Assembly (NCBI GenBank): GCA_025358885.1 | Contig: JANYHW010000059.1 | Location: 1 to 39,027 of the forward strand | From: Cytophagales bacterium | GTDB taxonomy: Bacteria; Bacteroidota; Bacteroidia; Cytophagales; Cyclobacteriaceae | Reading direction: 5' to 3' | Length of the DNA stretch: 39,027 bases | Shown here: positions 1 through 36,133 of the stretch, piece after piece | Position numbering within the stretch: the stretch's first letter is position 1 | How the letters are laid out: each line of letters opens with the position of its first letter | Program-made: the position numbers and the translations under genes | Notes under the pieces: model-generated | What the model saw: the letters and a program-made list of their open reading frames with translations, nothing else | Databases searched by the model: none | Told to the model about the DNA's origin: nothing

Positions 1-1185
1 ATTCATCTCGATTTAGACGCCTTTTTTGTAGCGGTGGAGTGCAAGAAAGAGCCAAAACTCAAGGGAAAGCCGCTCATTGTAGGAGGCAGCAGTCGCAGGG
101 GTGTGGTAGCCGCCTGTAGTTATGAAGCCAGGCGATTCGGGGTGCATTCCGCCATGCCCATGTACCTGGCCATGCAACTCTGCCCGGATGCCACCGTGAT
201 CTCTGGCGACATGGAATCGTACAGCCAGCATTCACACCTGGTGACGGACATCATTGCCGACTCCGCCCCGTCTTTTGAGAAAGCGTCCGTCGATGAATTT
301 TATATCGACGCCAGCGGGATGGACAGGTTCTTTGGAGCATTCAAGTGGGCGGTGGAGTTGCGCAAGAAAATCATCGACGAAAGCAGGCTTCCCATCTCCC
401 TCGGTATGTCGGTAAATAAACTCGTATCCAAAGTGGCGACGGGAGAATTCAAGCCCAATGCAGAAAAATTTATTCCATCAGGCACCGAAAAAGATTTTCT
501 GGCTCCGCTGTCTGTAGAGAAGATCCCCATGATCGGGAAGCAAACCTCTTCCTTCCTGTATGATATGGGGGTGCGTACTGTGGCAACCCTTCGCGAGATG
601 CCGCTGAAATTTCTGGTAAGCGCCTTCGGCAAAAATGGCATGTCGCTCTGGAACAAGGCGCAAGGTATTGACGAGTCGCCCGTGGTGCCTTACAGCGAAC
701 AAAAATCCATCTCTACAGAATGCACCTTCGAGGAAGACACCATCGATGTAAAGCGGCTGAAGTCGATCCTCATCGCCATGGTGGAAAAGGTGGCCTTCCA
801 GTTGCGCGAGCAGAAGAAACTAACGTCGTGCATCACCGTAAAAATCCGCTATTCCAACTTTGATACCGAAACAAAGCAACTCCATATCCCCTACACATCG
901 TCGGACCACGTGCTGTTGCGCACCGTGCAAGAGTTGTTCGACAAACTGTACAGCCGCAGGATGCTGATCCGCCTGGTGGGTGTGCGCCTCAGCAACCTGG
1001 TACAAGGCAACCACCAGATCAGCTTATTCGATGACACGGAAGAGGACATCAACCTCTACGAAGCAATGGATTACATCAAACACAAACACGGTGTGGAGAA
1101 ATTAGTACGCGCCACCACGCTGGGAGTGAACAGAAGGGTGCGGATGGAGATGAATATGTTCAATGGAAAAATAAAAAGATTATGA
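1..1185 (+). CDS. dinB: DNA polymerase IV (Y-family translesion polymerase), 5' end cut by window edge
   Basis: Y-family error-prone DNA polymerase that copies past lesions. The frame is open from base 1 and already reads HLDLDAFF, the family's N-terminal motif, so only a few codons are missing; the internal ATG at 34 is not the real start. The first catalytic Asp lies at bases 10-12 and the SVDEFYID motif puts the other two carboxylates at bases 292-297, so the catalytic core looks intact. This separates it from ImuB, a Y-family relative that has lost catalytic residues. A helix-hairpin-helix and a little-finger region follow, and the length (about 390 aa) is normal. It is followed 198 bp later on the same strand by a DnaE-like polymerase, the arrangement of a mutagenesis cassette. 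Any LexA or ImuA-like partner would be upstream, outside the window. Confidence 0.95.
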   Translation: MHLDLDAFFVAVECKKEPKLKGKPLIVGGSSRRGVVAACSYEARRFGVHSAMPMYLAMQLCPDATVISGDMESYSQHSHLVTDIIADSAPSFEKASVDEFYIDASGMDRFFGAFKWAVELRKKIIDESRLPISLGMSVNKLVSKVATGEFKPNAEKFIPSGTEKDFLAPLSVEKIPMIGKQTSSFLYDMGVRTVATLREMPLKFLVSAFGKNGMSLWNKAQGIDESPVVPYSEQKSISTECTFEEDTIDVKRLKSILIAMVEKVAFQLREQKKLTSCITVKIRYSNFDTETKQLHIPYTSSDHVLLRTVQELFDKLYSRRMLIRLVGVRLSNLVQGNHQISLFDDTEEDINLYEAMDYIKHKHGVEKLVRATTLGVNRRVRMEMNMFNGKIKRL

Positions 1186-1383
1186 AAATATGAACAACAT
1201 AACATCAGAAACAAGAACCCCAGATCTCATCTGCCTGGCCATCCGCCTACGACGATCCTATCACCCTGTCAAGCTGAGAACAATTGATGAGCAGGCCATC
1301 CCCCATTCAGATGTCGCCCCAAGCGATGACTTATTGGAACCATCGTTCACATCAAATGACCGATCACCGATCACCGTTTAAAA

Positions 1384-4300: not shown

Positions 4301-4407
4301 GAAAAGTGGTGGAGGATTTTGGCGTGTATATGATTGAAGTGTCACAGATGGAGAAGCTGCCCATGATTCACAAGAGACCCGAGCAGGTGCTGCAGGAAGT
4401 ACCCTAG
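1384..4407 (+). CDS. DnaE-like DNA polymerase III alpha subunit, short/error-prone type
   Basis: C-family DNA polymerase of 1007 aa, shorter than the replicative DnaE (about 1160 aa). The frame opens with GTG at 1384; an in-frame stop at 1357-1359 leaves no room for a longer form. An N-terminal PHP-like domain starts with LNCHTAFSFKYG. The palm contains GRGSGANS (residues 323-330), PDFDIDF (362-368, catalytic Asp365 and Asp367) and KFDIL with Asp498, so the three polymerase carboxylates are present. A finger motif GYSFAKGHSASYA follows, then a C-terminal OB-like part; the tau- and clamp-binding tail is reduced. In the PHP domain the usual HxH and TDH metal motifs read NCH and TEI, so the exonuclease-type metal site is probably lost. 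Position after dinB suggests a DnaE2-like translesion role. It ends 6 bp from the convergent amidase gene. Confidence 0.9.
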   Translation: MYLNCHTAFSFKYGTLPAQRLFDEARRCGVHKLVLTEINNTASYIEMLRLCAENAPVSGNNLTVYGKEAYTLEIAVGIEFRQDKQLLYITIAKNNAGFEEINRFLSRHNREEKPLPVRALEFDNAFVIYPFGKAEPEQLHPNEYIGVGKHQLNQFALYPGRKTHPEKFVVLQPVTFSDKTDYNVHRLLRAIDNNTLLSKLPLHQQAHSDEIMTPEENLEKHFQSYSELIRTTKQLLNQCSIHFDLKTDKNKRHTTGSEETDWDFLVTQSWEGFQERYDVTDPNLRERLQRELNIIRQKGFCSYYLVAYDLIRFAKEKGFDYVGRGSGANSVVAFCLGITNVDPIELDLYFERFLNSERSSPPDFDIDFSWDNRDAVYDYFFSKYGEEHVCLLGTHVTYQKRSVLRELGKVFGLPKDEIDAIVEEPFKNRNRDHITELIFKYAELMKDLPANISIHAGGVLITEKPIYAYTATELPPKGYPVSHFEMHNAEDMGIFKFDILSQRGLGHLKETVRLVKRNHGIPVNIHRFRDFKQDEKIKDLMRNSKAMGCFYVESPAMRMLLGKLRCEDYLTLVAASSIIRPGVARSGMMRAYIERFHAVRSGGTYESIHPQMDVLMKETYGVMVYQEDVIKVAHHFAGLTLTEADVLRRGMSGKYRSRAEFKLVEDRFFENCKARGYDQAVIDRVWYEIESFSGYSFAKGHSASYAVESYQSLYLKAHFPLEFMVGVINNFGGFYRTEFYFHEARMHGADIQAPCVNQSEFLTTLYDRQIYIGFIHLKSLEAKVANHIPMERQQHGPYKSLDNFLRRTPGIGLEQLRILIRIGAFRFTGKSKQKLLWEAMLYFSNAKSKPTTTVDLFDTEPKDFPLPELHRHSLEDAFDEMELLGFPVCSPFQLLDSTHYGDVTASDLVKKIRKHVRMVGYVVTTKDTSTLKNEPMHFGTFYDVHGEFFDTVHFPDVARKYPFRGRGFYEIKGKVVEDFGVYMIEVSQMEKLPMIHKRPEQVLQEVP

Positions 4408-23855: not shown

Positions 23856-23901
23856 GGATGCTTAAAGGCTTCAGCCCACATGATCTCAGTCAATCATTCA
23901 C

Positions 23902-23915
23902 ATGACTTTCATCAT
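23902..23915 (-). promoter_or_regulatory. FNR-geometry palindrome, site 1 (upstream of the Mla/HPF operon)
   Basis: Reads ATGATGAAAGTCAT on the minus strand, identical to the site at 30341. Half-sites ATGAT and GTCAT are separated by 4 nt, the layout of a Crp/Fnr-family box. It lies 72 bp before the coiled-coil gene that heads the operon. Confidence 0.6.
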
Positions 23916-23987
23916 CCCTAATACCACACTGTATAGCGTTATTTGGAGAGAATAGAAATTCAAACCATACTATAACCGATATGCTTT

Positions 23988-24392
23988 ATGGTATCCGCCA
24001 TCCATAGCCATTACCTTCAGCCAAGCCTGGTTGAGATGCATAGAAGGAGTCTTGATTATTTATCCTCTACCCTGCTTTGGAAAAGAGAGCTCTCTTTTTT
24101 TCAAAGACTGTTAGAAAATTCGGTTCTGAAGTTTTCAAAGGCCGAGGAGAAGAAGAAAATAGGTCATTTCCAAAGTCTTATTACCTACTACTCGGGCGAA
24201 CTGGTGGATCTCCCGCACAAAAAGATTCGGCAGCATGAACATAGGCTTGCCGAAATCCTGCAAAAGCAGCATGAATCTGATGCCGAATATTTCGTAGAGC
24301 ACAGGAAAATCATCTCACAAGCTGAATCATTTTCAAAAAGCCACGATGAGTTCCGTCATGAACTTTATGATTTTGTCGAGAAGGCAATGTAA
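23988..24392 (+). CDS. Unknown helical protein at the head of the Mla operon
   Basis: 134-aa almost entirely helical protein, charged, no signal peptide. A leucine- and lysine-rich segment (about residues 50-110) should form a coiled coil. I do not recognise a family. It is 14 bp before the Mla permease gene, so it is likely co-transcribed. A Crp/Fnr-type palindrome lies 72 bp upstream. An upstream ATG at 23981 is in another frame and stops after 8 codons. Confidence 0.65.
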   Translation: MVSAIHSHYLQPSLVEMHRRSLDYLSSTLLWKRELSFFQRLLENSVLKFSKAEEKKKIGHFQSLITYYSGELVDLPHKKIRQHEHRLAEILQKQHESDAEYFVEHRKIISQAESFSKSHDEFRHELYDFVEKAM

Positions 24393-24406
24393 CAGTAGAA
24401 GTAATT

Positions 24407-25177
24407 ATGGCCATTACAAACAACCTTAAACGGTTTTTCGAAGAAACGGGTGACATCAGCCGGTTTGTTACCAGGTTTTTCAAAGAAGGATTCAAACCTC
24501 GTTATGAATTCGGTGAATTGATTAGGCAATCCTTTTTCATTGGCTATAAATCACTGCCTTTGGTGGGCATTACGGCATTTATTATGGGACTCGTGCTCAC
24601 CATACAGTCCCGGCCAACGCTCGTTGAATTTGGCGCAGAGTCCTGGCTCCCAGGAATGGTCTCTTTGTCACTGGTGAGGGAAATATCACCCATGATCACG
24701 GCGCTCATTGCCGCGGGCAAGATCGGCTCCAGCATCGGTGCAGAATTGGGATCCATGAAAGTCACGGAACAGATTGATGCCATGGAGGTATCAGGGACCA
24801 ATCCATTCAAATTTCTGGTTGTCACCAGGGTAATGGCCACCACATTTATGTTGCCCATCCTTTCCCTGTGGGCAAACGCGATTGGGTTGTATGGCTCCTA
24901 CCTGGGGGTAAATATCAAAGGTTCGGTGAGCTGGCACCTTTACTGGAACCAGGTATTTGAAGCCCTTTCCTACAGTGATTTCATTCCCTCCCTGACTAAG
25001 ACATTCTTTTTTGGTTTTACCATTGGAATTATCGGTTGCTATAAGGGGTATAACTCCAAGAAGGGTACTGAGGGAGTGGGTAACTCTGCCAACTCTGCAG
25101 TTGTTGTGTCCTCTCTACTCATTTTCATTCTCGACTTGATTGCAGTCCAGATCACCGACCTGTTGGGGCTGACTTAA
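24407..25177 (+). CDS. mlaE: MlaE-type ABC permease (lipid transport)
   Basis: 256-aa inner-membrane permease of the MlaE family that moves phospholipids between inner membrane and periplasmic MCE proteins. Family motifs: the amphipathic N-terminal helix, GKIGSSIGAELGSMKVTEQIDAMEVSGTNP (split here around the conserved EQIDAMEV), and several membrane helices at about 50-75, 145-170, 195-220 and 230-253. It is followed 10 bp later by the ATPase gene and then by an MCE protein gene, the standard order. Confidence 0.93.
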   Translation: MAITNNLKRFFEETGDISRFVTRFFKEGFKPRYEFGELIRQSFFIGYKSLPLVGITAFIMGLVLTIQSRPTLVEFGAESWLPGMVSLSLVREISPMITALIAAGKIGSSIGAELGSMKVTEQIDAMEVSGTNPFKFLVVTRVMATTFMLPILSLWANAIGLYGSYLGVNIKGSVSWHLYWNQVFEALSYSDFIPSLTKTFFFGFTIGIIGCYKGYNSKKGTEGVGNSANSAVVVSSLLIFILDLIAVQITDLLGLT

Positions 25178-25187
25178 TTTGACTGCC

Positions 25188-25937
25188 ATGGCTGATCAGA
25201 ACAAAGAGATAGTATTGGCAATTCGCGACCTGTGCAAGTCGTTTGGCGACAATCATGTTCTGAACCACTTTGATCTTGACCTGTACAAGGGTGAAAACCT
25301 GGTCGTGCTTGGAAAGTCCGGTTCAGGAAAGTCAGTTCTCATCAAGTGTATCATAGGACTTATGAAGCCCGACCAGGGAAGCATCACCATCTTCGGCCAG
25401 GATGTACTTAGCCTTGAACATGAAGAGCTGGACCGGCTAAGGATGAAAATCGGATTTCTGTTCCAAAGCAACGCGTTGTACGACTCCATGACTGTCAAGG
25501 AAAACCTGGAGTTCCCCTTGCGACGACATTGGATGAAGAAAGAAATGAACCCAGCAAAGGTCAATGAGCTGGTCATGGAAGCTCTTGAAAATGTAGGGTT
25601 GGAACACACCATAGACATGATGCCTGTCGAGCTCTCGGGTGGAATGAGAAAGCGGATTGCCCTCGCACGCACGCTTATTCTTAAGCCAGAAATCATTCTG
25701 TATGATGAACCTACCACGGGGCTTGATCCCATCACAGCCAAGGAGATCATTCAACTCATGATTGATATTCAACACAAATACCAGACCTCGTCCATCATTA
25801 TTTCTCATGACCTGCAATGCGTAAGCATGGCATCCGATCGTGTCGTAATGCTCATCGACGGAATATGCTATGCCTCCGGCAACTACAAGGAATTAAGAAC
25901 AAGAGAAGACCAAAAAGTTAAGTTATTCTTTGATTAA
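25188..25937 (+). CDS. mlaF: MlaF-type ABC ATPase (lipid transport)
   Basis: 249-aa ATPase that powers the MlaE permease. Start taken at ATG 25188 (MADQNKE); a TTG at 25179 would add three residues. Walker A is GKSGSGKS, the signature is LSGGMRKRIALAR, Walker B is IILYDEPTTGLDP, followed by the H-loop IISHD. The family-specific GLMKPDQGSI and FLFQSNALYDSMTV segments agree with MlaF. The MCE partner follows after 9 bp. Confidence 0.93.
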   Translation: MADQNKEIVLAIRDLCKSFGDNHVLNHFDLDLYKGENLVVLGKSGSGKSVLIKCIIGLMKPDQGSITIFGQDVLSLEHEELDRLRMKIGFLFQSNALYDSMTVKENLEFPLRRHWMKKEMNPAKVNELVMEALENVGLEHTIDMMPVELSGGMRKRIALARTLILKPEIILYDEPTTGLDPITAKEIIQLMIDIQHKYQTSSIIISHDLQCVSMASDRVVMLIDGICYASGNYKELRTREDQKVKLFFD

Positions 25938-25946
25938 TGCTTCGCT

Positions 25947-26948
25947 ATGAAAAGGACCACTTCCAGTAATGTACAACTAGGACTCTTCGTGACCATCGGC
26001 CTGATATTCCTGCTGGCATCCCTCTACCTGATTGGCAACAACCAGAATCTGTTTGATTCAACATTTGAAGTCCACGCAACATTCTACAATGTAAGCGGAT
26101 TAACCAAAGGCAACAATGTGAGGTTCTCTGGAATAGATGTAGGCACCATCAAGCAGGTGGAGATTATCAGTGACACCTCGGTGAACGTGACCATGGTCAT
26201 CCAGGATGAAGTCCGTCCATTCATCAAGAAAACGTCGGTCGCCTCAGTAGGTACAGACGGCCTTATGGGAAATAAACTCATCAATATCACCAACCTGTCA
26301 ACAACCATGGGAGAAACAATCGAACCCGGTGGAATGCTGGTCACCAGCAAAGCAATTGAAACTGATAACATGCTCAGGACTCTTGATCAGACCAACAAGA
26401 ACCTGTATGACATAACCAGCGACATCAAGCGGATCACCCAAAAAGTCAACAATAACAATTCCCTTTGGAGCATCCTGATGGACACCACGGTGGCAGACAA
26501 TCTTAAGCAATCCATCAGCAGCGTTCGTCAAACCACCAGGAATACCGCCAACTTTACGAATGAATTGAATCGGCTTCTGAATGACCTCAAGGCCGGAAAA
26601 GGCGCAGCGGGTGCGATACTCCTGGACTCAATTTCGTCTGTCAAATTAAGAAGCAGTATTCAACAACTCCAGGAAGCCAGTAACAAGGCGTTGAAGGTCA
26701 CCAATGATATCAAGCTGCTGACCGAAAAGATGAAGAAAGGCGAAGGGGGCGCCGGGGTGCTAATGAGTGATAGCATATTTGCCAAAGACCTTAAGAAAAC
26801 CATGCACAATATTACTGAGGGTTCAGCGCGCTTTGATGAAAATATGGAAGCTATGAAGCACAATTTTCTTTTCAAGGGCTACTTCAAGGACCAGGAGAAG
26901 GAATTGAAGAAACAGAAACAAGATTCATTAAAAAAGGCCAGGAAATAA
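25947..26948 (+). CDS. mlaD: MlaD-like MCE-domain protein
   Basis: 333-aa protein with one N-terminal membrane helix (about 10-28, LGLFVTIGLIFLLASLYLIG) and an MCE domain (about 38-120: VHATFYNVSGLTKGNNVRFSGIDVGTIKQVEI and VGTDGLMGNKLINI). The C-terminal 200 residues are long helices with Gly-rich breaks (AGKGAAGAILLD, KGEGGAGVLMSD), longer than E. coli MlaD, and could form a periplasm-spanning tube as in other long MCE proteins. It should bind lipids on the periplasmic side for transport by MlaE/F. 12 bp separate it from the hibernation factor gene. Confidence 0.92.
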   Translation: MKRTTSSNVQLGLFVTIGLIFLLASLYLIGNNQNLFDSTFEVHATFYNVSGLTKGNNVRFSGIDVGTIKQVEIISDTSVNVTMVIQDEVRPFIKKTSVASVGTDGLMGNKLINITNLSTTMGETIEPGGMLVTSKAIETDNMLRTLDQTNKNLYDITSDIKRITQKVNNNNSLWSILMDTTVADNLKQSISSVRQTTRNTANFTNELNRLLNDLKAGKGAAGAILLDSISSVKLRSSIQQLQEASNKALKVTNDIKLLTEKMKKGEGGAGVLMSDSIFAKDLKKTMHNITEGSARFDENMEAMKHNFLFKGYFKDQEKELKKQKQDSLKKARK

Positions 26949-26960
26949 ACAACAGCATAT

Positions 26961-27305
26961 ATGAAGACCATCATCCAATCACCGCATATTAAGGTAACCG
27001 AAAAGCTGCAACGCACCATGGAACAGAAATTTGAGAAACTGGACAGGCTTTTCGACAGAATTGAATTGTGCAGCATTGTGCTGAAGCAGGAGAAAAATAA
27101 CCGACAGGAAAACTGTATTACCGAAGCCAAACTGTCTGTACCCGGCAATGACTTGTTTGCAACAGCCAAGGCAGCAAGTTTCGAAACTGCCGCAGACAAA
27201 GTTTACCTTGAAATTGAAAGTCAATTGAGGAAGCACAAGGCCAAGCTTACAAAGAAAGCCACCCTGCCTGGTGATCATTTTGCAAATGATGAAGAACTGG
27301 AATAA
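26961..27305 (+). CDS. hpf: Ribosome hibernation-promoting factor (short HPF/RaiA type)
   Basis: 114-aa protein of the HPF/YfiA domain, which binds the decoding site of the 30S subunit and silences or dimerises ribosomes in stationary phase. It opens MKTIIQSPHIKVTEKLQRTMEQKFEKLDRLF and keeps the ATAKAASFETAADKVYLEIESQLRKHK helix of the family; there is no long C-terminal dimerisation domain. It directly follows mlaD by 12 bp, so it is probably read from the same transcript and under the palindrome at 23902. An overlapping frame into the next gene (from 27271) is not a better start for either gene. Confidence 0.88.
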   Translation: MKTIIQSPHIKVTEKLQRTMEQKFEKLDRLFDRIELCSIVLKQEKNNRQENCITEAKLSVPGNDLFATAKAASFETAADKVYLEIESQLRKHKAKLTKKATLPGDHFANDEELE

Positions 27306-27372
27306 TAGAAAAATTTCAAATTATTGGTTGCGAACCGGCCTAATATTTCTCAGTCCAATGCTGTCTCTCACT

Positions 27373-28397
27373 ATGAAATACATTCTTCCGATAGGGTTAC
27401 TGTTGACCATTTTCTCGTGTAAACAAAGTCCTGAAAAGACTAGCCCCGTGGTTGAGTCCATTTCGGAATCCGTGTATGCTTCCGGGGTAGTGAAGAGTGA
27501 AAATCAATACCAGGTCTATTCTACGGTCAGCGGACTTATCCAGGAAATCCTGGTTAACGAAGGTGATCGGGTAAAAAAAGGCGACCCACTCATGAAGATC
27601 TTGAATGAGCCGTCCAAACTGAATGCCGATAATGCAAGGCTGGCAGCGGATTACGCTGATCTAAGGGCTAACCAGGACAAACTTCGTGAGGCAAAAGCTT
27701 CACTTGATCTCGCTTTGACCAAAATGAAAAATGACTCACTTCTGTACGTGAGGCAGAAGAATATGAAAGCAAAAGGCGTTGGGAGCCAGGTGGAGCTTGA
27801 ACAGCGGGAACTGGCTTATAAAAACTCAGAATTTGTGTCGAACCAGTCAAAGACAACCCTGAAACTATACAGTGCCCTTGCCGGTGACTATACCATCAGG
27901 GCAGATGCAAACGCCAAAGTATATAAAGTCCTCAGAGAAAAAGGTGAGTTTGTCAACACACTTAACCCGGTGGCTATTGTCGGCGATGCAGATGCCTTCC
28001 TTATTGAATTGAAAGTGGATGAGTATGACATCGCCAGAATTCAATCAGGGCAAAAGGTAGTCATCAGCATGGACAGCTATAAAGGAAAAGTTTTTGAGGG
28101 CATCGTGAGTAAAATTGAGCCTTGATGAATGAGCAAACCCGCTCATTCACGGTAAAGGCGGCATTCATTGCAAAGCCCGAGACCCTTTACCCAGGACTTT
28201 CCGTCGAGGCTAATATTGTCATCCAATCAAAGGAGATGGCTTTAACCATCCCAAGAAGTTATCTTCTCCCGGATTCCACAGTCCACCTGTCCAAAGGAGT
28301 AATCAGAAAAGTAAAGGTTGGCCTGGCTGATTATCAAAAAGTTGAAATACTTGATGGGCTGAACAAAGATGACGTGATCTACAAGCCTGTGCAATGA
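27373..28397 (+). pseudogene. HlyD/MFP-family periplasmic adaptor lipoprotein, split by a frameshift near 28122
   Basis: Adaptor subunit of an ABC efflux system. The first part (27373-28125, 250 aa) has a lipobox (Cys16 in TIFSC), a lipoyl-like half (YQVYSTVSGLIQEILVNEGD), a helical hairpin, the second half (FVNTLNPVAIVGD) and ends VSKIEP then TGA. The second part continues immediately in the -1 frame (28122-28397), starting MMNEQTRSFTVKAAF, which in this family directly follows the I-P segment in one protein. One lost base near 28120-28124 explains it. No slippery heptamer is visible. The 3' end overlaps the permease start by 4 bp, so the operon was recently intact; a sequencing error is as likely as a real mutation. 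Confidence 0.8.
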
Positions 28398-29653
28398 AGT
28401 CACACCTCATCATCCGGATTGCAAAATCCCTCCTGCTCGCCAGGTGGAGACAAACACTGGTGGCCGCAGTAGGTGTTACATTCAGCATCGCCATGTTCAT
28501 TACCCTTCTGGGGTTTATGAATGGTCTTAACAAACTGCTTGATGGTTTGATCATCAATCGTATTGCCCATGTTCGTTTGTTTAAAGAAATAAAACCTAAT
28601 GCGCATCAGCCAATCAATTCCTCCGATCGATTCAAGCATAGCTATAACTTCATACGAACTGTAAAGTCTGAGAGCAGCCGGCAGGCGATTTACAATAGTG
28701 GAGCCGTCCTCCGCGCGCTTAAGAAAGATGATCGCGTATCGGGTGTTGCGCCCAGGATAACCGCCCAGGTATTTTTCAATGACGGCGTGGTTGATATCAC
28801 AGGGGTTATTAACGGTATTGATGTAGAGGCAGAAAGCCATTTATTTCATTTCAACGAGTATGTGACGGCTGGCAAACCGATAGACCTGAAGCATGTGTCC
28901 AGCAGCATAATTCTTGGAAAGGGGTTGGCTGCCAAACTTCTCGCCAACATTGGCGATGTCGTTCAGGTTACCACAGCCCAGCAAGAACGTTTCTCCTTGA
29001 AAGTTGTTGGCTACTTTCAGTCAGGCCTCCAGGAGGTAGACAAAACCCAGAGTTTCGCTTCATTGGCAACGACACAAAAGATTCTGGCCAGGCCCAGTGA
29101 TTACATAACCGATATTCAGGTCAAGCTCAATGACCTGAGCCTGGCTCCCGGGGTGGCAAGGGAATACGCTAAACTTTTTGATACCGAAACAGAGGACATT
29201 CAAACGGCCAATGCGCAGTTCGAAACAGGTTCATTTATTCGTTCACTTATTTCCTATTCTGTGGGGATCACTTTGCTGATTGTCGCCGGCTTTGGTATTT
29301 ATAATATCCTCAACATGATGATTTATGAAAAAATGGACTCTATCGCCATACTCAAGGCTACCGGCTTTTCAGGCTTTGATGTCAACAGAATCTTTATTGC
29401 CATTGCGCTCAGCATCGGGTTTTTCGGAGGCATAGTTGGGCTTCTGTTTGGGTTCCTGCTCTCCTCCATTATCGATCAGATTCCCTTCAATACGGCAGCG
29501 CTTCCCACGATCAAGACTTATCCCATTGACTATAACCCTGTATTCTATTTGATCGCTACCACCTTTTCTCTTGTTACCACCTACCTGGCAGGCTGGGCAC
29601 CCGCAAGAAAGGCTAGTAAGATAGACCCGGTTGTCATCATTCGAGGCAAATAA
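28394..29653 (+). CDS. FtsX/MacB-like ABC transporter permease
   Basis: 419-aa inner-membrane permease with the MacB/LolC/FtsX topology: one N-terminal membrane helix (about 21-43), a large periplasmic domain (about 50-275) and three C-terminal helices (about 284-306, 330-353, 378-400), closing with WAPARKASKIDPVVIIRGK, the family's coupling end. With a HlyD-type adaptor upstream and a LolD-type ATPase downstream it forms a tripartite efflux system or lipoprotein-release-like machine. The start overlaps the adaptor stop by 4 bp. The substrate is unknown. Confidence 0.92.
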   Translation: MKSHLIIRIAKSLLLARWRQTLVAAVGVTFSIAMFITLLGFMNGLNKLLDGLIINRIAHVRLFKEIKPNAHQPINSSDRFKHSYNFIRTVKSESSRQAIYNSGAVLRALKKDDRVSGVAPRITAQVFFNDGVVDITGVINGIDVEAESHLFHFNEYVTAGKPIDLKHVSSSIILGKGLAAKLLANIGDVVQVTTAQQERFSLKVVGYFQSGLQEVDKTQSFASLATTQKILARPSDYITDIQVKLNDLSLAPGVAREYAKLFDTETEDIQTANAQFETGSFIRSLISYSVGITLLIVAGFGIYNILNMMIYEKMDSIAILKATGFSGFDVNRIFIAIALSIGFFGGIVGLLFGFLLSSIIDQIPFNTAALPTIKTYPIDYNPVFYLIATTFSLVTTYLAGWAPARKASKIDPVVIIRGK

Positions 29654-29657
29654 GGCT

Positions 29658-30338
29658 ATGGGCGAAAATGTACTTCAAGCAAAGGGAATCTGCAAAAGTT
29701 TTCATGACCCGGTAAGGATAATGGTGTTGAAGGACGTGACATTCTCCATCAGCAAAGGAGAGTTTGTATCCGTTATCGGCAAGTCAGGCTGTGGTAAATC
29801 TACCCTGCTTTACATCCTCTCCACAATGGATACAGATTACAAGGGGGAATTATTCATTGATCAGGAAAATATGCTGGGCAGATCCGAAAAGCAGCTCGCT
29901 CGTATAAGAAACGAAAAGATTGGCTTCGTATTCCAGTTTCATTATCTGCTCAATGAATTCACCGTCCTGGAAAATGTAATGCTCCCCGGCTTGAAACTTG
30001 CCCGCTGGCCAGAAGCGGAGGTCAAGCTCCGGGCATTGGAAAAACTGAGGATGCTGGACATCCAGGCGCTTTCAGGCAAGATGGCAAATCAATTGTCGGG
30101 CGGAGAAAAACAAAGGGTTGCCATCGCACGCGCGCTCATCAATGATCCAATTATTATTATGTGTGATGAACCTACAGGTAACCTGGACAAGGCCAATGGC
30201 TTGACGGTTTTTAATATTTTTAAATTACTTGCACAGGAACAACACCAAACCCTCCTGGTGGTTACACACGATCAGGAATTTGCAAAGAATACCCACCGCA
30301 TTATAGAAATGGACGATGGCAGAATCGTTAGGCAATAG
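29658..30338 (+). CDS. LolD/MacB-like ABC ATPase
   Basis: 226-aa ATPase partner of the upstream permease. Start taken at ATG 29658, 4 bp after the permease stop; a TTG at 29631 would overlap the permease. Walker A is GKSGCGKST, the signature is LSGGEKQRVAIARAL, Walker B is IIIMCDEPTGNLD, H-loop VVTHD; the GNLD form of Walker B is typical of the LolD/MacB/FtsE group. The gene ends 2 bp before a Crp/Fnr-type palindrome that belongs to the next gene. Confidence 0.94.
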   Translation: MGENVLQAKGICKSFHDPVRIMVLKDVTFSISKGEFVSVIGKSGCGKSTLLYILSTMDTDYKGELFIDQENMLGRSEKQLARIRNEKIGFVFQFHYLLNEFTVLENVMLPGLKLARWPEAEVKLRALEKLRMLDIQALSGKMANQLSGGEKQRVAIARALINDPIIIMCDEPTGNLDKANGLTVFNIFKLLAQEQHQTLLVVTHDQEFAKNTHRIIEMDDGRIVRQ

Positions 30339-30340
30339 GT

Positions 30341-30354
30341 ATGATGAAAGTCAT
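30341..30354 (+). promoter_or_regulatory. FNR-geometry palindrome, site 2 (upstream of first usp)
   Basis: ATGATGAAAGTCAT, identical to the minus-strand sequence of site 1. It lies 130 bp upstream of the universal stress protein gene and just after the ABC ATPase stop. Confidence 0.65.
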
Positions 30355-30483
30355 GCCCCGCTTTGTCCTTTGTCATCGTCGATTTTAGGTCCAACAACTA
30401 GTTTTACAGAGCCTACACACCGAAAGAATATGTGTGTTCCAGCTCAAATTGAGTGCATTCACGAACATCTAATCAATAACACT

Positions 30484-31296
30484 ATGAAAAAGATATTGTG
30501 CCCAACTGACTTCTCTGAAACAGCCGCACAAGCCATCGAGTATGCTGCAAAATTATGCAAGACAATTGATGCAGAACTTACCTTACTGAATGTCCAGTCT
30601 GTTCTTTCCCTTCCTCCGGTCGAAGTCATCAAGGGTAAGTTTCTGGCGACGGAGCCTATTCGCGAACGACTGGAGGACTTGAGCTATCAGGTGATGGAAG
30701 CTTTCAAGATTACCTGTCTTACCGAAGTCCAACCCTCCAATCAGAGTTTGAGCGACATTATTTCCAGCCGCGCGAGGGATTTTGACATGATTGTAATGGG
30801 CACGAATGGCGCAGATGATTACTCCCAATTCTTCTTCGGTAGTAATTCTTATCAGGTGGCCAGGGCGTCGTCTGTACCTGTAGTGCTGATCCCCAGCGGC
30901 TGCGGAAAGCTGGACATTAACAACATGGTGTTTGCCTTTGATTATGAAGGCCAGCAAAAACCGCCCATTGAACAGGTTACAGAATGGACAACACTCCTGA
31001 ACATAAAGGTCACCATTTTACAGGTCAAGGATCACTATTCGAGGGAAGTTGAGGTGAATTCAAAAGAGATTGAGGAGAACCATAAAGTCTACACAGACCA
31101 CATGGGTGTTGATTTTGATACAGTCTATTCGGATGAAGTTGTAGACTGCATCAATCATTACGTCCTTCAAAAAAAGGCTGATGCCCTCGCTCTTTGTACC
31201 ATCGACCACGGTTTAATAAAATCACTTTTTCACAAGAGCATTATCAAAGCCTTAAGTTCAACAGTTAACTATCCCCTCTTCATTTTTCATGAATAG
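30484..31296 (+). CDS. Universal stress protein, two Usp domains
   Basis: 270-aa cytoplasmic protein. Start at ATG 30484 (MKKILCPTDFSETAAQ), the standard Usp beginning; a longer frame from 30316 is not supported. The first domain (1-140) has the ATP-binding motif G-2X-G-9X-G-S in MGTNGADDYSQFFFGSNSY. The second domain (about 145-270) lacks this motif and is degenerate. Tandem Usp proteins are common in Bacteroidota and respond to starvation, low oxygen or membrane stress. A Crp/Fnr-type site lies 130 bp upstream. It is convergent with the receiver-Crp gene. Confidence 0.92.
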   Translation: MKKILCPTDFSETAAQAIEYAAKLCKTIDAELTLLNVQSVLSLPPVEVIKGKFLATEPIRERLEDLSYQVMEAFKITCLTEVQPSNQSLSDIISSRARDFDMIVMGTNGADDYSQFFFGSNSYQVARASSVPVVLIPSGCGKLDINNMVFAFDYEGQQKPPIEQVTEWTTLLNIKVTILQVKDHYSREVEVNSKEIEENHKVYTDHMGVDFDTVYSDEVVDCINHYVLQKKADALALCTIDHGLIKSLFHKSIIKALSSTVNYPLFIFHE

Positions 31297-31386
31297 TACT
31301 GCTCATTCGGATGACAATGGCTAGCATGCAAGGTACTGGAGGAAAACTATGTAATGTCCTTGGTTGTTGAGAATCAGATTTTCTGA

Positions 31387-32445
31387 TTAGTGGCGCAACA
31401 TCTTTTCGAGGCCTGCAGGATTCACAATCCGAATTCCCCCATTGACCAGGTCAATCATACCTTCATCCTTGAAGTCTGCCAATGTGCGGTTAAGGGATTC
31501 CGTTGCCGTACCGACGATATTGGAAATATCTTTCCGGGCTATGGTGATGGTCTGTTTGGAGGCAGGTGGACCGGAAACCTTGTTCAACTTGAGCAAGGTA
31601 CCCGCCACCCGTTGTCTCACGGACTGGTATGCCAGGTCAAGTAACCTGTTTTCTGCCTCCGAAAGATTATTGGATAATAATTGAATGAATTTTCTGGCCA
31701 TATCCTTGCTGGAATAGATAAGGATCTGAAAGTCCTGCTTGGGGATAATGGCGATCTCGGCATCTTCGAGAACCATCGCGGTCTCATGACTGGGGGCATC
31801 TTCCAGCAGGGAAACGTAGCCCAGAAAATCTCCGGGGTTATGAATGCCTGTAATGAGTTCCTTCCCCTCCTCATTCGATTTATAAGTCTTTATCCTACCC
31901 TTATTGATGAAATAAACATCATTAAGAGTCTGTCCCTCCATGAAGAGAAACTCCCTCTTATGACATGTACGAACGTGACGTTTCTCTGAAAGCTTTTGAA
32001 AATCTTTTAATTCCTTGGCATGATTGAAGAAAAGATTTACTCCATCCAGGTCATTGTTATAAGTTGAATGCATAAAAGCCCTCTTCTTCAGCCTGAGTTC
32101 AACGACTTTGAGTAAGTCCAGTCCGTCAAATGGTTTAGTGACATAATCATCCGCACCCAGATTCATGCCCCTGCGAAAATCACTTCGGTCAGCTTTTGCC
32201 GTAAGAAAAACAAATGGAATGTCTGCAGTCTCAGGATTCGTACTTAGCAAATGTAAAACGCCGTATCCGTCCAACTCGGGCATCATGATATCGCAGAGCA
32301 CCAGATCGGGATGATACTTCTGTGCGGCTTCCACACCTGCTTTCCCGTTGGATGCCGTGATCACGGAATATCGTGCAAGGCTTAAAATTGCAGAGATGTT
32401 CTCAGCCATTTCAGGATTATCCTCAATTACCAATATGGTACTCAT
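31387..32445 (-). CDS. Receiver-Crp/Fnr fusion transcription regulator
   Basis: 352-aa regulator with a response-regulator domain (1-120) joined to a Crp/Fnr-type effector domain and helix-turn-helix. Phosphoacceptor Asp52 (LVLCDIMMPELDG), acidic pair Glu8-Asp9, Thr82 and Lys104 are present. The cyclic-nucleotide-binding-like domain (about 150-270) has GDFLGYVSLLEDAPSHETAM, where the cAMP-binding Arg of CRP is replaced by His, so cAMP binding is unlikely. There is no N-terminal Fe-S cysteine cluster. The recognition helix is TATESLNRTLADF (Glu316, Asn319, Arg320), FNR-like ExxSR with Asn for Ser. Start at 32445 is supported by a GGAGG at 32454-32458, 8 nt upstream. A matching palindrome lies 76 bp upstream. 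No sensor kinase is in the window. Confidence 0.93.
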   Translation of the reverse strand: MSTILVIEDNPEMAENISAILSLARYSVITASNGKAGVEAAQKYHPDLVLCDIMMPELDGYGVLHLLSTNPETADIPFVFLTAKADRSDFRRGMNLGADDYVTKPFDGLDLLKVVELRLKKRAFMHSTYNNDLDGVNLFFNHAKELKDFQKLSEKRHVRTCHKREFLFMEGQTLNDVYFINKGRIKTYKSNEEGKELITGIHNPGDFLGYVSLLEDAPSHETAMVLEDAEIAIIPKQDFQILIYSSKDMARKFIQLLSNNLSEAENRLLDLAYQSVRQRVAGTLLKLNKVSGPPASKQTITIARKDISNIVGTATESLNRTLADFKDEGMIDLVNGGIRIVNPAGLEKMLRH

Positions 32446-32453
32446 AGAACTTG

Positions 32454-32458
32454 CCTCC
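32454..32458 (-). promoter_or_regulatory. Strong ribosome binding site deciding the receiver-Crp start
   Basis: GGAGG on the minus strand, 8 nt before the ATG at 32445. It shows that the upstream TTG of the longer frame (32463) is not the start. Such a strong Shine-Dalgarno is unusual among the genes here. Confidence 0.65.
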
Positions 32459-32520
32459 AACAACGAGACAAAATAAAAATGTAAGCGTGAGAAGCGTACT
32501 GATTACAGTCAGTCAAGAAT

Positions 32521-32534
32521 ATGACTCACATCAT
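32521..32534 (-). promoter_or_regulatory. FNR-geometry palindrome, site 3 (upstream of the receiver-Crp gene)
   Basis: ATGATGTGAGTCAT on the minus strand, same half-sites and spacing as the other three, with a different 4-nt centre. It lies 76 bp before the start of the regulator gene, suggesting autoregulation. Confidence 0.6.
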
Positions 32535-32579
32535 GCGGAAAAATATTGGAACTTTTCGACCTATTTGACTTCAAAAAGC

Positions 32580-33308
32580 CTATTTGTAATGTTTGGCAAT
32601 CTTTGCCTTCAGTGTTGCGAGATCCGCTTTGGAGGTAGTCTTTAGCCGCTTCAGCTCATCAGCAGCTTTGTTCTTCCTCAGGACAGGCATTAGCATCTGC
32701 TTGTCATGCCACAAGCCAACAATTTTCTCCACATCCTTATAAAACGCATCATTCCGGGAACGATCCTCTAACCACCGCAGGTAAATTAGTTCCTTGGCAA
32801 TTTTACGCGCTTTATGAAGGTCCTTTAGGCTAAATGACGGAAACAATAATTGCTTTATCTGGTACTCCTTTTTTTTGAGGTATTTTTTCGCCTCTGCTTT
32901 ATCTACTGAACCCGCCACCTTTACGAGCTTCTTCTTATGAAGTTTGACAATAGTCATAAACTGTGGAACTTCTTTCTGAAAGGCGCCACTTAGTACATCG
33001 GACTTGCCTGCCTTAGGAATTTCAGAATCAGGGACTCCGGAAATCTCATATAGAAGCAATAACTTATATAACACATCCGATTGCCTGATTTCTCCTGCTC
33101 TCCTGAAGATAGTCCTGAACGGAATAAACTGCCGGTGTCCCTTGAATTTCTTCACGCTGGCATCCATCAGGTTTAGAACTACCTTTATTTTTTTTACATC
33201 TACCCTGATAGCATGCAGTACTTCAGGGTCCCGAAGCTGGCCATAACTCTCCAGGTTCTTCGTGAGGCTGCGGAATCTTTTGTTTGTATATGATCTGAGT
33301 CGCTTCAT
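32580..33308 (-). CDS. CHAD domain protein
   Basis: 242-aa basic, helical protein. Start taken at ATG 33308 (MKRLRSYTNKRF); a TTG at 33362 would add 18 residues. The CHAD (conserved histidine alpha-helical) domain is shown by LHAIRVDVKKIKVVLNLM (about 35-52) and the basic helices that follow. CHAD domains bind polyphosphate in other bacteria, so a role in polyphosphate granules or stress is likely. It is 86 bp downstream of the eRF1-like gene on the same strand and probably co-transcribed with it. Confidence 0.82.
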   Translation of the reverse strand: MKRLRSYTNKRFRSLTKNLESYGQLRDPEVLHAIRVDVKKIKVVLNLMDASVKKFKGHRQFIPFRTIFRRAGEIRQSDVLYKLLLLYEISGVPDSEIPKAGKSDVLSGAFQKEVPQFMTIVKLHKKKLVKVAGSVDKAEAKKYLKKKEYQIKQLLFPSFSLKDLHKARKIAKELIYLRWLEDRSRNDAFYKDVEKIVGLWHDKQMLMPVLRKNKAADELKRLKTTSKADLATLKAKIAKHYK

Positions 33309-33394
33309 TTTTCCTATGCCATTTCCCAATAACAGGCTAAAGCAACGGACTTCATCAACCAACGTGGAAAGTTACCTGCGATTTGTCCAAACTG

Positions 33395-34534
33395 TCAATT
33401 TGTTCCGGAGGCCATGTTCTTGTATCTCAACACCATAGCAATGTGATGGTATTTCTTCAGTCCCTCATTTTCAACAAATACAATTTTTCCTCTCTTTTCG
33501 CGGACGGTTTGAATCAAATTATCCACCGCATCGGCGACCACCTGGTATTCGCCATTGGGTGGGAAGGTATGAATATTATGTTCATCATTTCTTTTGAAGT
33601 AGGCCTTCCTCCTGTAATCCTTTTCCACCGCCAGCAACAGCCCCTTTCCATCATGTGCGGCTTTCCATACCTCTTCCAGTCCTTCCACGACCCTGTGGTC
33701 CCCGAAGTCTTCATCCAACTTCCGAATAACCATGTCTTGCTTACCAATTTTGAAATTGAAAATAGTCTGATGGAACTTGCTGATCATTTCGGACGAGAAA
33801 GTGCGATGATGGGAGACGGCCAGGGTTCCTGCCACCAGGTCACGGTGCTCCGTGACTCTCATGAAGGCGGATGTTTCTTCTGCCGGCCCGCATAAAATAA
33901 TAAGGTCCTGATTTTTGAGATACTTGTGAAGAAACCGGTCGGTCTCTTTGAAAAAGATATGCATCCTTTCCTTGGCTAATCCTAACTTATCCTTTTCATA
34001 GGACTTCATATTCTCGCCAAAGGATGTTCCCCTGCTTGGTTTGGCATATTGATGATCATCAACATACAATGCAGGGAAGTTGGAATCCATAAGTTCTTTG
34101 AGCTCATTGTGCTGACTCCTGTAGAGATTGATTTTGTTCTTCGCAAGCATTAGCACATAGAAGGAAGATGAAAATTCGCGATAGTAAAATAAGTTGCGCG
34201 TCTCAAATGAATCAGCCATACTGATCATCTCATGAACATCGAAAGGAAAATACAGGATTTCTGCAACATCGGGAGAAACAAATATGCCAACGCCCTTGCC
34301 TAATTTCTTAGTGTCAATCCCTACTGCCAATCTTTCAAAGTTCATGTTCACTTTGCTCATGTCACCTGGGGTCACTTCTTTTCGATGTGACAACAGTGTC
34401 CTTGCCTTATTTAAGTTTTTCTTAATTATTCCCTTATTAAGAAAGCGCATGGCGGAATAGCCGGTCGTTGGAATGATCACGGTCAGGCAGGGTTTTCCTT
34501 TGTATTGAATTAGTTTTTCAACCTGGGAAAGCAT
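33395..34534 (-). CDS. Bacterial archaeo-eukaryotic release factor-like protein (baeRF family)
   Basis: 379-aa cytoplasmic protein. Start at ATG 34534 (MLSQVEKLIQYKGKPCLTVIIP); a longer frame from 34615 would run back through a terminator. The layout matches the baeRF group, bacterial relatives of eRF1/Pelota: N-terminal VTVYIPT-like strand (CLTVIIPTTG), a middle domain (LDLIILCGPAEETSAFMR region) and a C-terminal eRF1 domain-3-like end (KIVFVENEGLKKYHHIAMVLRY). Members are proposed to act on stalled or stress-modified ribosomes; direct function is not established. The subfamily is uncertain. It lies in a stress cluster. Confidence 0.75.
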   Translation of the reverse strand: MLSQVEKLIQYKGKPCLTVIIPTTGYSAMRFLNKGIIKKNLNKARTLLSHRKEVTPGDMSKVNMNFERLAVGIDTKKLGKGVGIFVSPDVAEILYFPFDVHEMISMADSFETRNLFYYREFSSSFYVLMLAKNKINLYRSQHNELKELMDSNFPALYVDDHQYAKPSRGTSFGENMKSYEKDKLGLAKERMHIFFKETDRFLHKYLKNQDLIILCGPAEETSAFMRVTEHRDLVAGTLAVSHHRTFSSEMISKFHQTIFNFKIGKQDMVIRKLDEDFGDHRVVEGLEEVWKAAHDGKGLLLAVEKDYRRKAYFKRNDEHNIHTFPPNGEYQVVADAVDNLIQTVREKRGKIVFVENEGLKKYHHIAMVLRYKNMASGTN

Positions 34535-34559
34535 AGTCTTGAAGTTTATCTTGAATTGA

Positions 34560-34587
34560 ATGATGAGAGAAAAATGATGAGAGAAAA
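34560..34587 (+). repeat. Perfect 14-bp tandem duplication
   Basis: ATGATGAGAGAAAA occurs twice without interruption (34560-34573 and 34574-34587), between the eRF1-like gene and the hsp20 terminator. It probably arose by slippage. Confidence 0.85.
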
Positions 34588-34609
34588 ACGGGCCCCGAGA
34601 GGCCCGTTT
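34584..34609 (-). terminator. Intrinsic terminator of hsp20
   Basis: On the minus strand AAACGGGCC and GGCCCGTTT (34601-34609 with 34586-34594) form a perfect 9-bp stem with a 6-base loop, followed by a run of five T. It starts 9 bp after the hsp20 stop and separates it from the eRF1-like gene. Confidence 0.9.
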
Positions 34610-34617
34610 CAGCAACG

Positions 34618-35079
34618 TTAGGAAACCGAAATTTCCCTGGAAGGCTTGGACACAGTCACATCCTTCTTGGGAATACTAATCTTCAAAATACCATCCTGGT
34701 ACTTTGCATCAATGTTGCCTTCCTTTACGTTTTCCGGTAAAGAGAAAGATCTGCTAAAAGAATTATAAGAGAACTCCTTTTTGGTGTATCCCTCTCTTTC
34801 TTCCTTCTTCTCTTCTTTTTTTTCTGAGCTGACCGTCAGCAAGTGGTCTTTCACTTCCACTTTGAAATCTTTCCTTACCAGACCAGGAGCAGCCAATTCC
34901 ACCAGATATTCCTTGGGTGATTCAGTAACATTGGCCGAAGGAACATTCATACCCAACCGCAGGGCTGAGAAAGGTGCTTCCAAATCCATATCCATGAAAT
35001 CAGAAGCGAGCATAGCTGGATTTAACCAATCTGAAAACAAGGTTGGCAATCCTCCGTTGTTTTTTACAAGCAGACTCAT
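34618..35079 (-). CDS. Hsp20 small heat shock protein
   Basis: 153-aa ATP-independent chaperone that holds unfolding proteins. Start at ATG 35079 (MSLLVKNNGG); a longer frame from 35127 is unlikely. The alpha-crystallin domain (about 46-140) has ELAAPGLVRKDFKVEVKDHLLTV, a charged loop of alternating Glu/Lys (87-96), YNSFSRSFSLP and the GILKISIPK motif; the C-terminus keeps an I-x-V anchor (REISVS). It is divergent from the second usp gene across 214 bp holding one Crp/Fnr-type site, and is closed by its own terminator. Confidence 0.95.
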   Translation of the reverse strand: MSLLVKNNGGLPTLFSDWLNPAMLASDFMDMDLEAPFSALRLGMNVPSANVTESPKEYLVELAAPGLVRKDFKVEVKDHLLTVSSEKKEEKKEEREGYTKKEFSYNSFSRSFSLPENVKEGNIDAKYQDGILKISIPKKDVTVSKPSREISVS

Positions 35080-35194
35080 AAGGGTTTGTTTTAAAATGTT
35101 TAACACCCAAATAAACCAATACAACACCTATCGTTTCAATGATGGATATCAATGATATTCAAGATTTTCATCCCGCGTACAAGCCTTGATATTG

Positions 35195-35208
35195 ATGATA
35201 AAAGTCAT
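35195..35208 (+). promoter_or_regulatory. FNR-geometry palindrome, site 4 (between hsp20 and second usp)
   Basis: ATGATAAAAGTCAT, one base from site 2. It is 86 bp before the usp start and 116 bp before the hsp20 start, so it could serve either or both divergent genes. Confidence 0.65.
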
Positions 35209-35293: not shown

Positions 35294-36133
35294 ATGAAAA
35301 ATATCCTCGTACCCATTGATTTTTCGGCATATTCTCTCGCCGCCGCCAGAATTGCCGCCGCAATCGCCTCCAAGACACAAGGAGAAATTCATTTGCTCCA
35401 CCTTACTGATATACCGGTTGGCTGGAATCAACAGTCTGTTGAAATTCAGCAAGAATATCCCATGCTTGAAGGCAGGCTTGTTGAAGCTAACATCAAGATT
35501 GAGAAGTTCAGCAAGCAGGTCTTTCTGAAGAATTGTAAGGTATTTACTCATGTCCAGGGAGGGGTTGCCTTCGAGCAAATCAGCCTCTTTGCGAAAAGAA
35601 ACAAGGCCAACCTCATTGTCATGGGTGTTCATGGTGCTGGTGAATCTGACGCGAAGTTCATCGGCTCTACTGCCCAACGGGTGCTCAGGACCGCGACATG
35701 CCCGGTACTTGGAGTTAAAAAAGACTACAACCTGGGGACCTTAAAGAAGTTGCTTTTTGCCTCAGATTTTGTCGAAGAGGCCGGCCCTGCCATCAACATC
35801 ATGAAGAACCTTGCCCAGGACATGGGTGCCAACATTGACCTGGCATATATCAACACACCCGGGCATTTTGTAGATGATATTACCGTGGAAAAGAGGATGG
35901 CGAAGTTTGATATCATACAAAACAAAGTCAAGTTCCATCATGTAATTCAAAACAGCAATGAGAAAGTTGAAGGTATTCTGCACTGTGCACAGAAACGCAA
36001 TGCCAACCTGATCGCCATGGTGACGCACCTCAGGGCACATAAGGCAAGTTACTTGTTGGGTGTAACCGAGAGTGTACTCTTTCATTCAACAATTCCCGTA
36101 CTGAGTTTTATTACCAATGAATCGCGCCACTAA
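35294..36133 (+). CDS. Universal stress protein, two Usp domains
   Basis: 279-aa tandem Usp. MKNILVPIDFSAYSLAA opens the first domain, whose ATP motif G-2X-G-9X-G-S is in MGVHGAGESDAKFIGSTAQ (about 111-129). The second domain (about 145-275, LKKLLFASDFVEEAGPAINI) lacks the full motif. It is a paralogue of the usp at 30484. It is preceded by a Crp/Fnr-type palindrome and followed 18 bp later by a repetitive helical protein, probably on the same transcript. Confidence 0.94.
   Translation: MKNILVPIDFSAYSLAAARIAAAIASKTQGEIHLLHLTDIPVGWNQQSVEIQQEYPMLEGRLVEANIKIEKFSKQVFLKNCKVFTHVQGGVAFEQISLFAKRNKANLIVMGVHGAGESDAKFIGSTAQRVLRTATCPVLGVKKDYNLGTLKKLLFASDFVEEAGPAINIMKNLAQDMGANIDLAYINTPGHFVDDITVEKRMAKFDIIQNKVKFHHVIQNSNEKVEGILHCAQKRNANLIAMVTHLRAHKASYLLGVTESVLFHSTIPVLSFITNESRH

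Follow-up and report, generated by a model that had tools for sequence, protein, structure and literature searches.

This analysis concerns four near-identical palindromes in a stretch of 39,027 nucleotides of DNA from a Cytophagales bacterium (GenBank assembly GCA_025358885.1, contig JANYHW010000059.1), hereafter the window, together with the genes that follow them and the regulator that may read them. The palindromes, of the form ATGAY-N4-RTCAT, begin at positions 23902 (ATGACTTTCATCAT), 30341 (ATGATGAAAGTCAT), 32521 (ATGACTCACATCAT) and 35195 (ATGATAAAAGTCAT), all given in window letters, and according to the gene caller made here all four are intergenic, just as the original prediction had it. 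Shuffled versions of the window contain 0.37 such palindromes on average, and none of 100 shuffles reaches four. The same prediction placed the sites 70-130 bp before gene starts, which is correct for three of them, with box centres approximately 80 (23902), 82 (32521) and 92 bp (35195) from the respective starts, and incorrect for the fourth (30341), which is 136 bp away. The palindromes have the appearance of genuine operators in an FNR-like low-oxygen system common to many Bacteroidota, and, judging from sequence comparisons, their reader in this genome is most likely a receiver fused to an FNR-type DNA-binding head.

The candidate reader is encoded at 31387..32445 on the minus strand and consists of a receiver, a cNMP-binding fold and an HTH_Crp domain with the helix GTATESLNRTL. 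Its matches to PF00027 (1.6e-20) and PF13545 (4.5e-15) place it in the Crp/Fnr superfamily, and a Pfam Response_reg domain (5.3e-27) is found in place of an N-terminal cysteine cluster; we refer to proteins of this type as response regulator-Crp (RR-Crp). A site in the promoter of this gene had been predicted and is indeed present, and it is actually a tandem pair. Namely, the distal box ATGATGTGAGTCAT (32521..32534, minus strand) lies 22 bp above a proximal box that keeps no outer base (32499..32512, minus strand; CTGATTACAGTCAG on the plus strand), and a candidate -7 element TTATTTTG (32469..32476, minus strand, counted by hand) has a TTTG that is 33 bp away from the centre of the proximal box and 55 bp away from that of the distal box. 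At the other end of the region, the proximal box ATGACTTTCATCAT (23902..23915, plus strand) stands before the gene at 23988, with a distal box ATGATCTCAGTCAA (23880..23893, plus strand, one outer base kept) 22 bp above it. Here, TTTG (23942-23945) is exactly 33 bp from the centre of the 23902 box, and in the candidate -7 element GTTATTTG (23938..23945, plus strand) the TTTG half alone fits the pattern TAnnTTTG. The first gene after this pair codes for a hypothetical protein (23988..24392, plus strand) with no Pfam family at E 0.001, and it opens the gene run labelled Mla/HPF in the original prediction, which includes an S30AE/HPF-type ribosome hibernation protein (26961..27305, plus strand).

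The two remaining palindromes precede genes for universal stress proteins: the box ATGATGAAAGTCAT (30341..30354, plus strand) stands before usp1 (30484..31296, plus strand) and has no TTTG at +33, while the box ATGATAAAAGTCAT (35195..35208, plus strand) stands before usp2 (35294..36133, plus strand) and has TTTC at that position. On the strand opposite to usp2, the gene for an Hsp20 small heat-shock protein (34618..35082, minus strand) starts 120-190 bp from the 35195 box, its exact start being uncertain. An additional box ATGATGGATATCAA with one outer base kept (35139..35152) lies between hsp20 and usp2, with TTTG at +34 on the hsp20 strand, one base off. Of the relaxed core TGAY-N4-RTCA, the window contains 15 copies, some of them inside genes, as compared with a mean of 3.97 in shuffled versions; none of 100 shuffles reaches 15.

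In the genome assembly as a whole (3.84 Mb in 246 contigs), there are 43 exact copies of ATGAY-N4-RTCAT and 4 of the reversed control pattern, a contrast that exaggerates the enrichment, since words of the ATG/CAT type are frequent within genes. If the spacer is allowed to vary from 0 to 12, a gapped search reporting shortest matches only gives 395 copies, or approximately 29 per spacer other than N4. Intergenic DNA, however, makes up 8.9% of the own-genome stretches that were fetched, and it holds 18 of the 43 copies, as against an expected number of about 4 (binomial p 9e-9, or 3e-6 if the intergenic share is 13%); this contradicts the possibility, raised together with the original prediction, that the motif is equally frequent inside genes. 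Genes were called with a codon-bias script trained on the window, which is less dependable outside this genome. That other spacers are scarce within the own-genome stretches serves as supporting evidence only, because these stretches were fetched for holding an N4 site. One could argue that the palindromes are special through chance or codon composition and nothing else, and in the genome as a whole 25 of the 43 copies do lie in genes, with other spacers averaging about 29 copies. Such an account is contradicted by an intergenic excess found for N4 only, exact pairing at 22 bp, TTTG at exactly +33 and recurrence of the site before ccoN, all of which are described below, and we consider it extremely improbable.

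A clearer picture emerges from the loci of related regulators. Using the protein encoded at 31387-32445, we fetched the best 80 of 573 named loci, which come from Cyclobacteriaceae, Chryseolinea, Pontibacter, Saprospiraceae, Flavobacteriaceae and others and comprise 1.46 Mb, 13.2% of it intergenic. These loci contain 74 intergenic copies of ATGAY-N4-RTCAT and 11 in genes, while spacers of 0-3 and 5-12 give 0-4 intergenic copies and the reversed N4 control gives 0 intergenic and 5 in genes. With outer bases left free, N4 has 254 intergenic copies and the other spacers 9-45, and the outer bases of intergenic N4 sites are A..T in 74 cases, C..G in 14, G..C in 9 and T..A in 3. In other words, the proposal of an FNR layout with a changed outer base holds, and the plain FNR box TTGAT-N4-ATCAA can be rejected, since its 5-4-5 layout is there and its outer bases are not. 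That said, the counts from the 80 loci are not independent because some of the loci are close relatives.

Many of the sites are paired at 22 bp, a feature absent from the original prediction. We searched 58 genomes for two boxes 0-30 bases apart, requiring one outer A or T, and the reversed control gave 5 matches in all 58. At least 124 distinct pairs were found, at least 111 of them in the 36 genomes of the window's genus. Among the pairs listed, 60 of these 111 have a start-to-start offset of 22 bp and come from 27 genomes, and the other 30 offsets together account for 51, with 10 at offset 21 and 9 at offset 23. The count at 21 is inflated by a repeat array in one genome (G012:C83:148472-148825), in which ATGACTNNTGTCA-like words recur at steps of approximately 21 bp. 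At least 4 pairs at 22 bp are present in the window's own genome, and the window itself holds two of these (23880/23902 and 32499/32521). In the 80 loci, intergenic pairs no more than 60 bp apart number 22 at 22 bp, 6 at 23 bp and 7 elsewhere, and there are 3 coding pairs.

What is more, the sites keep a fixed distance from a promoter element. Among 270 oriented intergenic sites of the 80 loci with at least one outer base kept, TTTG is found at +33 in 72 and at +55 in 31, as compared with a mean of 1.77 of 270 at other offsets and with 1 of 82 in-gene sites at +33; the longer TAnnTTTG starts at +29 from the box centre in 10 of 112. According to an excerpt of PMC9723704, the -7 box TAnnTTTG of Flavobacterium psychrophilum extends from -12 to -5, and the centre of the box would therefore fall at -41.5 and that of the upper tandem box at -63.5. 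On the evidence of this spacing, the sites stand at a fixed distance from the presumptive Bacteroidota -7 box, with predicted centres at about -41.5 and about -63.5. In the window's own genome, the boxes at 23902 and 32499 fit the +33 register.

Which genes do these promoters serve? In the window's own genome, neighbours of intergenic sites include pyruvate:ferredoxin oxidoreductase (PFOR), a lactate/malate dehydrogenase, PPK2, cytochrome c, a fasciclin, a sulfide/dihydroorotate dehydrogenase-like flavoprotein, a metallo-hydrolase with rhodanese, two Usp and Hsp20, and also several genes without a low-oxygen role, among them a carboxylesterase, a peroxidase and a LysR-type regulator. A relaxed site precedes ccoN of the cbb3 oxidase on contig C243 (L040:1286). 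To place the latter in context, 30 ccoN loci were fetched and 26 were examined after leaving out 4 partial ones: the N4 core is present between about 350 bp above and 60 bp below the ccoN start in 23 of the 26, the own genome included, and TAnnTTTA lies at +51, i.e. in the -63.5 register, in 13 of the 20 loci whose site is 40-160 bp above the profile match. The original prediction spoke of a stress regulon, which agrees with the Usp and Hsp20 neighbours; general stress as the theme, on the other hand, was rejected, and low oxygen fits better because the neighbours include cbb3 oxidase, PFOR, cytochrome c and PPK2. In the mycobacterial DosR dormancy regulon, a response regulator likewise governs Usp and Hsp20 genes at low oxygen, through a DNA-binding domain that is of LuxR type and not of Crp type.

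We also tallied the families of genes that follow composite promoters, meaning a box with TTTG at +33, in 60 stretches from seven genomes other than the window's, of which 5 yielded no gene under the rule used and were dropped. The 55 stretches scanned gave cytochrome c 6 times, Crp-type HTH (helix-turn-helix) 3, 4Fe-4S ferredoxin domains 3 and NadA 2, and none of these families appears among the 25 listed of 84 that matched in 40 control genes. The tally serves as support only, because the sets are small and the controls were the longest frames in arbitrary stretches, two of the seven genomes giving none. As for the regulators themselves, the N4 core is found in 39 of 74 RR-Crp operon promoters and other spacers in 1-6 of the 74.

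Turning to the readers of the box, the genome encodes four HTH_Crp_2 proteins: the RR-Crp of the window, a second RR-Crp behind a kinase on contig C237, and one protein each on C243 and C75. Among the 36 genus genomes, 22 have an RR-Crp match that extends over the receiver and some or all of the Crp half, with one truncated where its contig ends; those of G029, G023, G031 and G027 resemble the window protein most closely (59-75%). Another 12 have a receiverless Crp/Fnr match only, of approximately 240 residues and with or without separate receivers, and 2 have none. In four of these twelve cases, which were examined, the protein has a CxxC near its N-terminus, and a usp gene adjoins, with a 22-bp pair between. 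RR-Crp and the CxxC Fnr proteins have in common, with small variations, the helix GT[AS][TP]E[ST]x[IN]R, in which Glu and Arg are kept and the FNR-type Ser is replaced by Asn or Ile (ESLNR, ESVIR, ETVIR); Ser has a recognised role in the helix E-xx-S-R of FNR and FixK. In a tree of 67 rows, 50 of them RR-Crp (including 40 sampled from 79), the 16 Fnr and Crp rows lie on one side of a supported branch (99/100), and since the C75 row, which is very long, is placed among the RR-Crp rows, two changes are required for RR-Crp. The C75 protein (L043, G000:C75) has the helix TSRQTVTTIL.

If RR-Crp reads the box, the two should occur together. We counted composite promoters (hits/control) in 149 genomes of the window's class, probably Bacteroidia, which are related by descent, with regulator types set by E-value cut-offs and frame length. 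Genomes with RR-Crp gave 411/31 (74 genomes) and those without it 152/25 (75 genomes); with none of the three regulator types the count was 20/12 (35 genomes). RR-Crp alone gave 67/11 (31 genomes), RR-Crp with the C243 type and no Fnr 33/4 (8 genomes), Fnr without RR-Crp 122/13 (37 genomes) and RR-Crp with Fnr 311/16 (35 genomes). Two members of the last group, G111 and G198, are there on one gene each and have 0 hits; without both, the count is 311/14 (33 genomes). Two others, G105 and G180, have 8/0 each and carry RR-Crp and neither other type at the cut-offs used, G105 having one further HTH_Crp_2 protein of 214 residues.

The third Crp-type protein of this genome (C243, beside cytochrome c, helix RVETVIR) could in principle be the one that reads the box here, with the targets of RR-Crp lying elsewhere. 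Its gene is preceded by a box with TTTA at +33 (L041:3523), a second box separates it from cytochrome c, loci L088 and L089 hold a box within the same gene pair, and genomes with the C243 type only gave 10/0 (3 genomes). RR-Crp, however, has the helix pattern of the CxxC Fnr group, from which the C243 type is a distant branch, and the RR-Crp-only genomes (67/11) stand out against those with none (20/12), with the caveat that distant C243-like proteins could fall below the cut-off; we regard this alternative as unlikely. A box that separates a short Crp-type gene from cytochrome c is seen at L041 2256-3471, L088 14169-15933 and L089 3264-5102, and a fasciclin gene follows the two genes in L088 and L089.

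Alternatively, the sites could be mainly relics or operators of a cysteine-bearing Fnr that the species has lost, with RR-Crp nearby by chance. Indeed, Fnr-bearing genomes give the strongest signal both without RR-Crp (122/13) and with it (311/16), and in L088-L091, where there is no full RR-Crp match, a 239-residue Fnr gene adjoins usp with a 22-bp tandem. The window's own genome, on the contrary, has no Fnr match at E <= 1e-42 and yet contains 18 intergenic sites and at least four 22-bp pairs, and the core is present in 39 of 74 RR-Crp operon promoters, which makes this second alternative distinctly improbable, more so than the C243 protein. RR-Crp is the best-supported candidate for the reader here, and elsewhere the box appears to be read by Fnr cousins that carry cysteines and have the same recognition helix. 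The link between regulator and sites drawn in the original prediction thus gains support from neighbourhood enrichment, operon promoters and co-occurrence, and is limited by the presence of a second RR-Crp paralogue in the genome and of a box in front of a third Crp-type gene.

What signal could such a regulator receive? A histidine kinase gene is directly upstream of 69 of the 79 RR-Crp genes, although there is none beside the RR-Crp gene of the window, and all three receiver motif patterns (acidic pair, phospho-Asp, T/S and Lys) are present in 75 of the 79 homologues. The PAS domains of the kinases match FixL, with E 7.5e-31 for L174 and 1.1e-12 for the kinase of the window's own genome, and the His and Arg columns, which in FixL correspond to the proximal and distal haem residues, are aligned in both. 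An oxygen input is plausible for part of the RR-Crp group because of these FixL-like PAS matches and of the motif in some of the kinases, and the window protein is not covered by it.

Putting these elements together, we consider it likely that an FNR/FixK-type low-oxygen regulon of Bacteroidota has its operators at these sites and that in this genome RR-Crp paralogues read them. A dimer of an activator with the Crp/Fnr fold would bind ATGAY-N4-RTCAT centred at about -41.5, the class II position, and at many promoters a second box would lie 22 bp, or two helical turns, upstream at about -63.5. The best candidates for readers in this genome would be the RR-Crp of the window, which would also control itself, and the kinase-linked one on C237; RR-Crp would be switched on through phosphorylation by a histidine kinase whose sensor resembles the FixL haem-PAS. 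Elsewhere in the Bacteroidota, the box would be read by a cysteine-bearing Fnr cousin whose recognition helix is the same. Site enrichment, spacer and outer-base preference, tandem spacing, the distance to the -7 box, classes of neighbours and co-occurrence with regulators were computed. From these we infer binding, activation rather than repression, phosphotransfer and oxygen as the signal.

Several observations weigh against this interpretation. In the whole genome, the N4 excess is modest (43 copies as compared with ~29 per other spacer), and more than half of the exact matches are inside genes (25/43), where they are probably background. TTTG is at +33 in 2 of 27 strong (p 0.03) and 3 of 37 relaxed (p 0.004) own-genome sites, a sample too small for the -7 geometry of this genome, taken alone, to stand on, and it is missing from the usp1 site (30341) and from the one before the C237 kinase. 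Of the RR-Crp operon promoters, 35 of 74 have no site, including all 18 Pontibacter, Adhaeribacter or Rufibacter loci, and composite promoters per Mb amount to 0.55 in RR-Crp-only genomes versus 1.01 and 2.27 in Fnr-bearing ones. As for the signal, a FixL-like His..GxGR motif is present in just 14 of 69 kinases, and the best solved match to the PAS of the own-genome kinase is 10jx (3.1e-16), a multi-sensor kinase with no such Arg aligned. Finally, loci and genomes are related, some being near-copies, so that p-values for tandem offset, TTTG geometry and co-occurrence overstate the evidence.

Excerpts of PMC7888657 describe a comparable system in rhizobia, where FixK and FnrN both use the anaerobox TTGAT-N4-ATCAA before fixNOQP, and FixL acts through FixJ and hFixL through FxkR. 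As in this FixL-FixJ-FixK/FnrN system, so far as those excerpts go, we find an activator candidate of the Crp/Fnr fold, a 5-4-5 palindrome, a cbb3 oxidase target, a cysteine-bearing Fnr on the same box, a box in the regulator's own promoter and, in part of the RR-Crp loci, a FixL-like kinase. In contrast to it, here receiver and Crp/Fnr domain are in one protein, the outer base is A..T and not T..A, and there are a recurrent 22-bp tandem and a Bacteroidota -7 promoter. It is tempting, if still tentative and slightly short of an even chance, to view the system as a one-protein FixJ-FixK cascade, in which a FixL-like kinase would act on a receiver-FNR fusion at paired boxes and thereby on cbb3 oxidase, fermentation and dormancy genes, with operators shared with the cysteine-bearing Fnr and thus two oxygen-related inputs on one box.

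Compared with FNR structures (5cvr/9qlt and relatives), the fold is shared (E 1.6e-16 for RR-Crp and 1.7e-22 for the Fnr cousin) and the recognition-helix Glu and Arg are aligned in the cousin. Unlike FNR, RR-Crp has a receiver instead of a cysteine cluster, the outer base of the box differs, and where FNR has the Ser of ETISR, the cousin has Ile and RR-Crp has Asn or Ile. Among solved structures, the Crp/Fnr protein 2gau of the PDB, presumably from P. gingivalis, comes nearest in sequence to the Fnr cousin (E 9.4e-39), and it is also the Crp-fold structure that matches RR-Crp best (E 1.2e-18); unlike RR-Crp it has no receiver, and its helix is TVSNAIR as opposed to TATETVIR in the cousin. In the open literature, subscription papers and regulon databases being outside the search, we found no account of an ATGAY-N4-RTCAT box or of a receiver-Crp regulator of cbb3 genes, and according to an excerpt of PMC8510549 a metatranscriptome study used a borrowed MalR matrix for homologues in Flavobacteriales, Saprospiraceae and Ignavibacteria. 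The low-oxygen Crp/Fnr regulators of Bacteroidota had no box of their own in the open literature searched. A box with a fixed promoter position would permit regulon prediction across Bacteroidota by a simple scan, and the receiver-Fnr fusion would lend itself to testing as an example of a signalling cascade whose two steps have been merged in a single protein.

Two further features of the window deserve mention. A baeRF-type gene (33395..34540, minus strand), whose best NCBIfam match is a ribosome hibernation factor at 162.6 bits, below the model cut-off of 330, is together with the HPF gene (26961-27305) one of two ribosome-hibernation-type genes in the site-bearing region. At 34-4407, a Y-family polymerase-like gene is followed by a DnaE-like gene, and judged by eye from the translation the two resemble an ImuB/DnaE2 pair.

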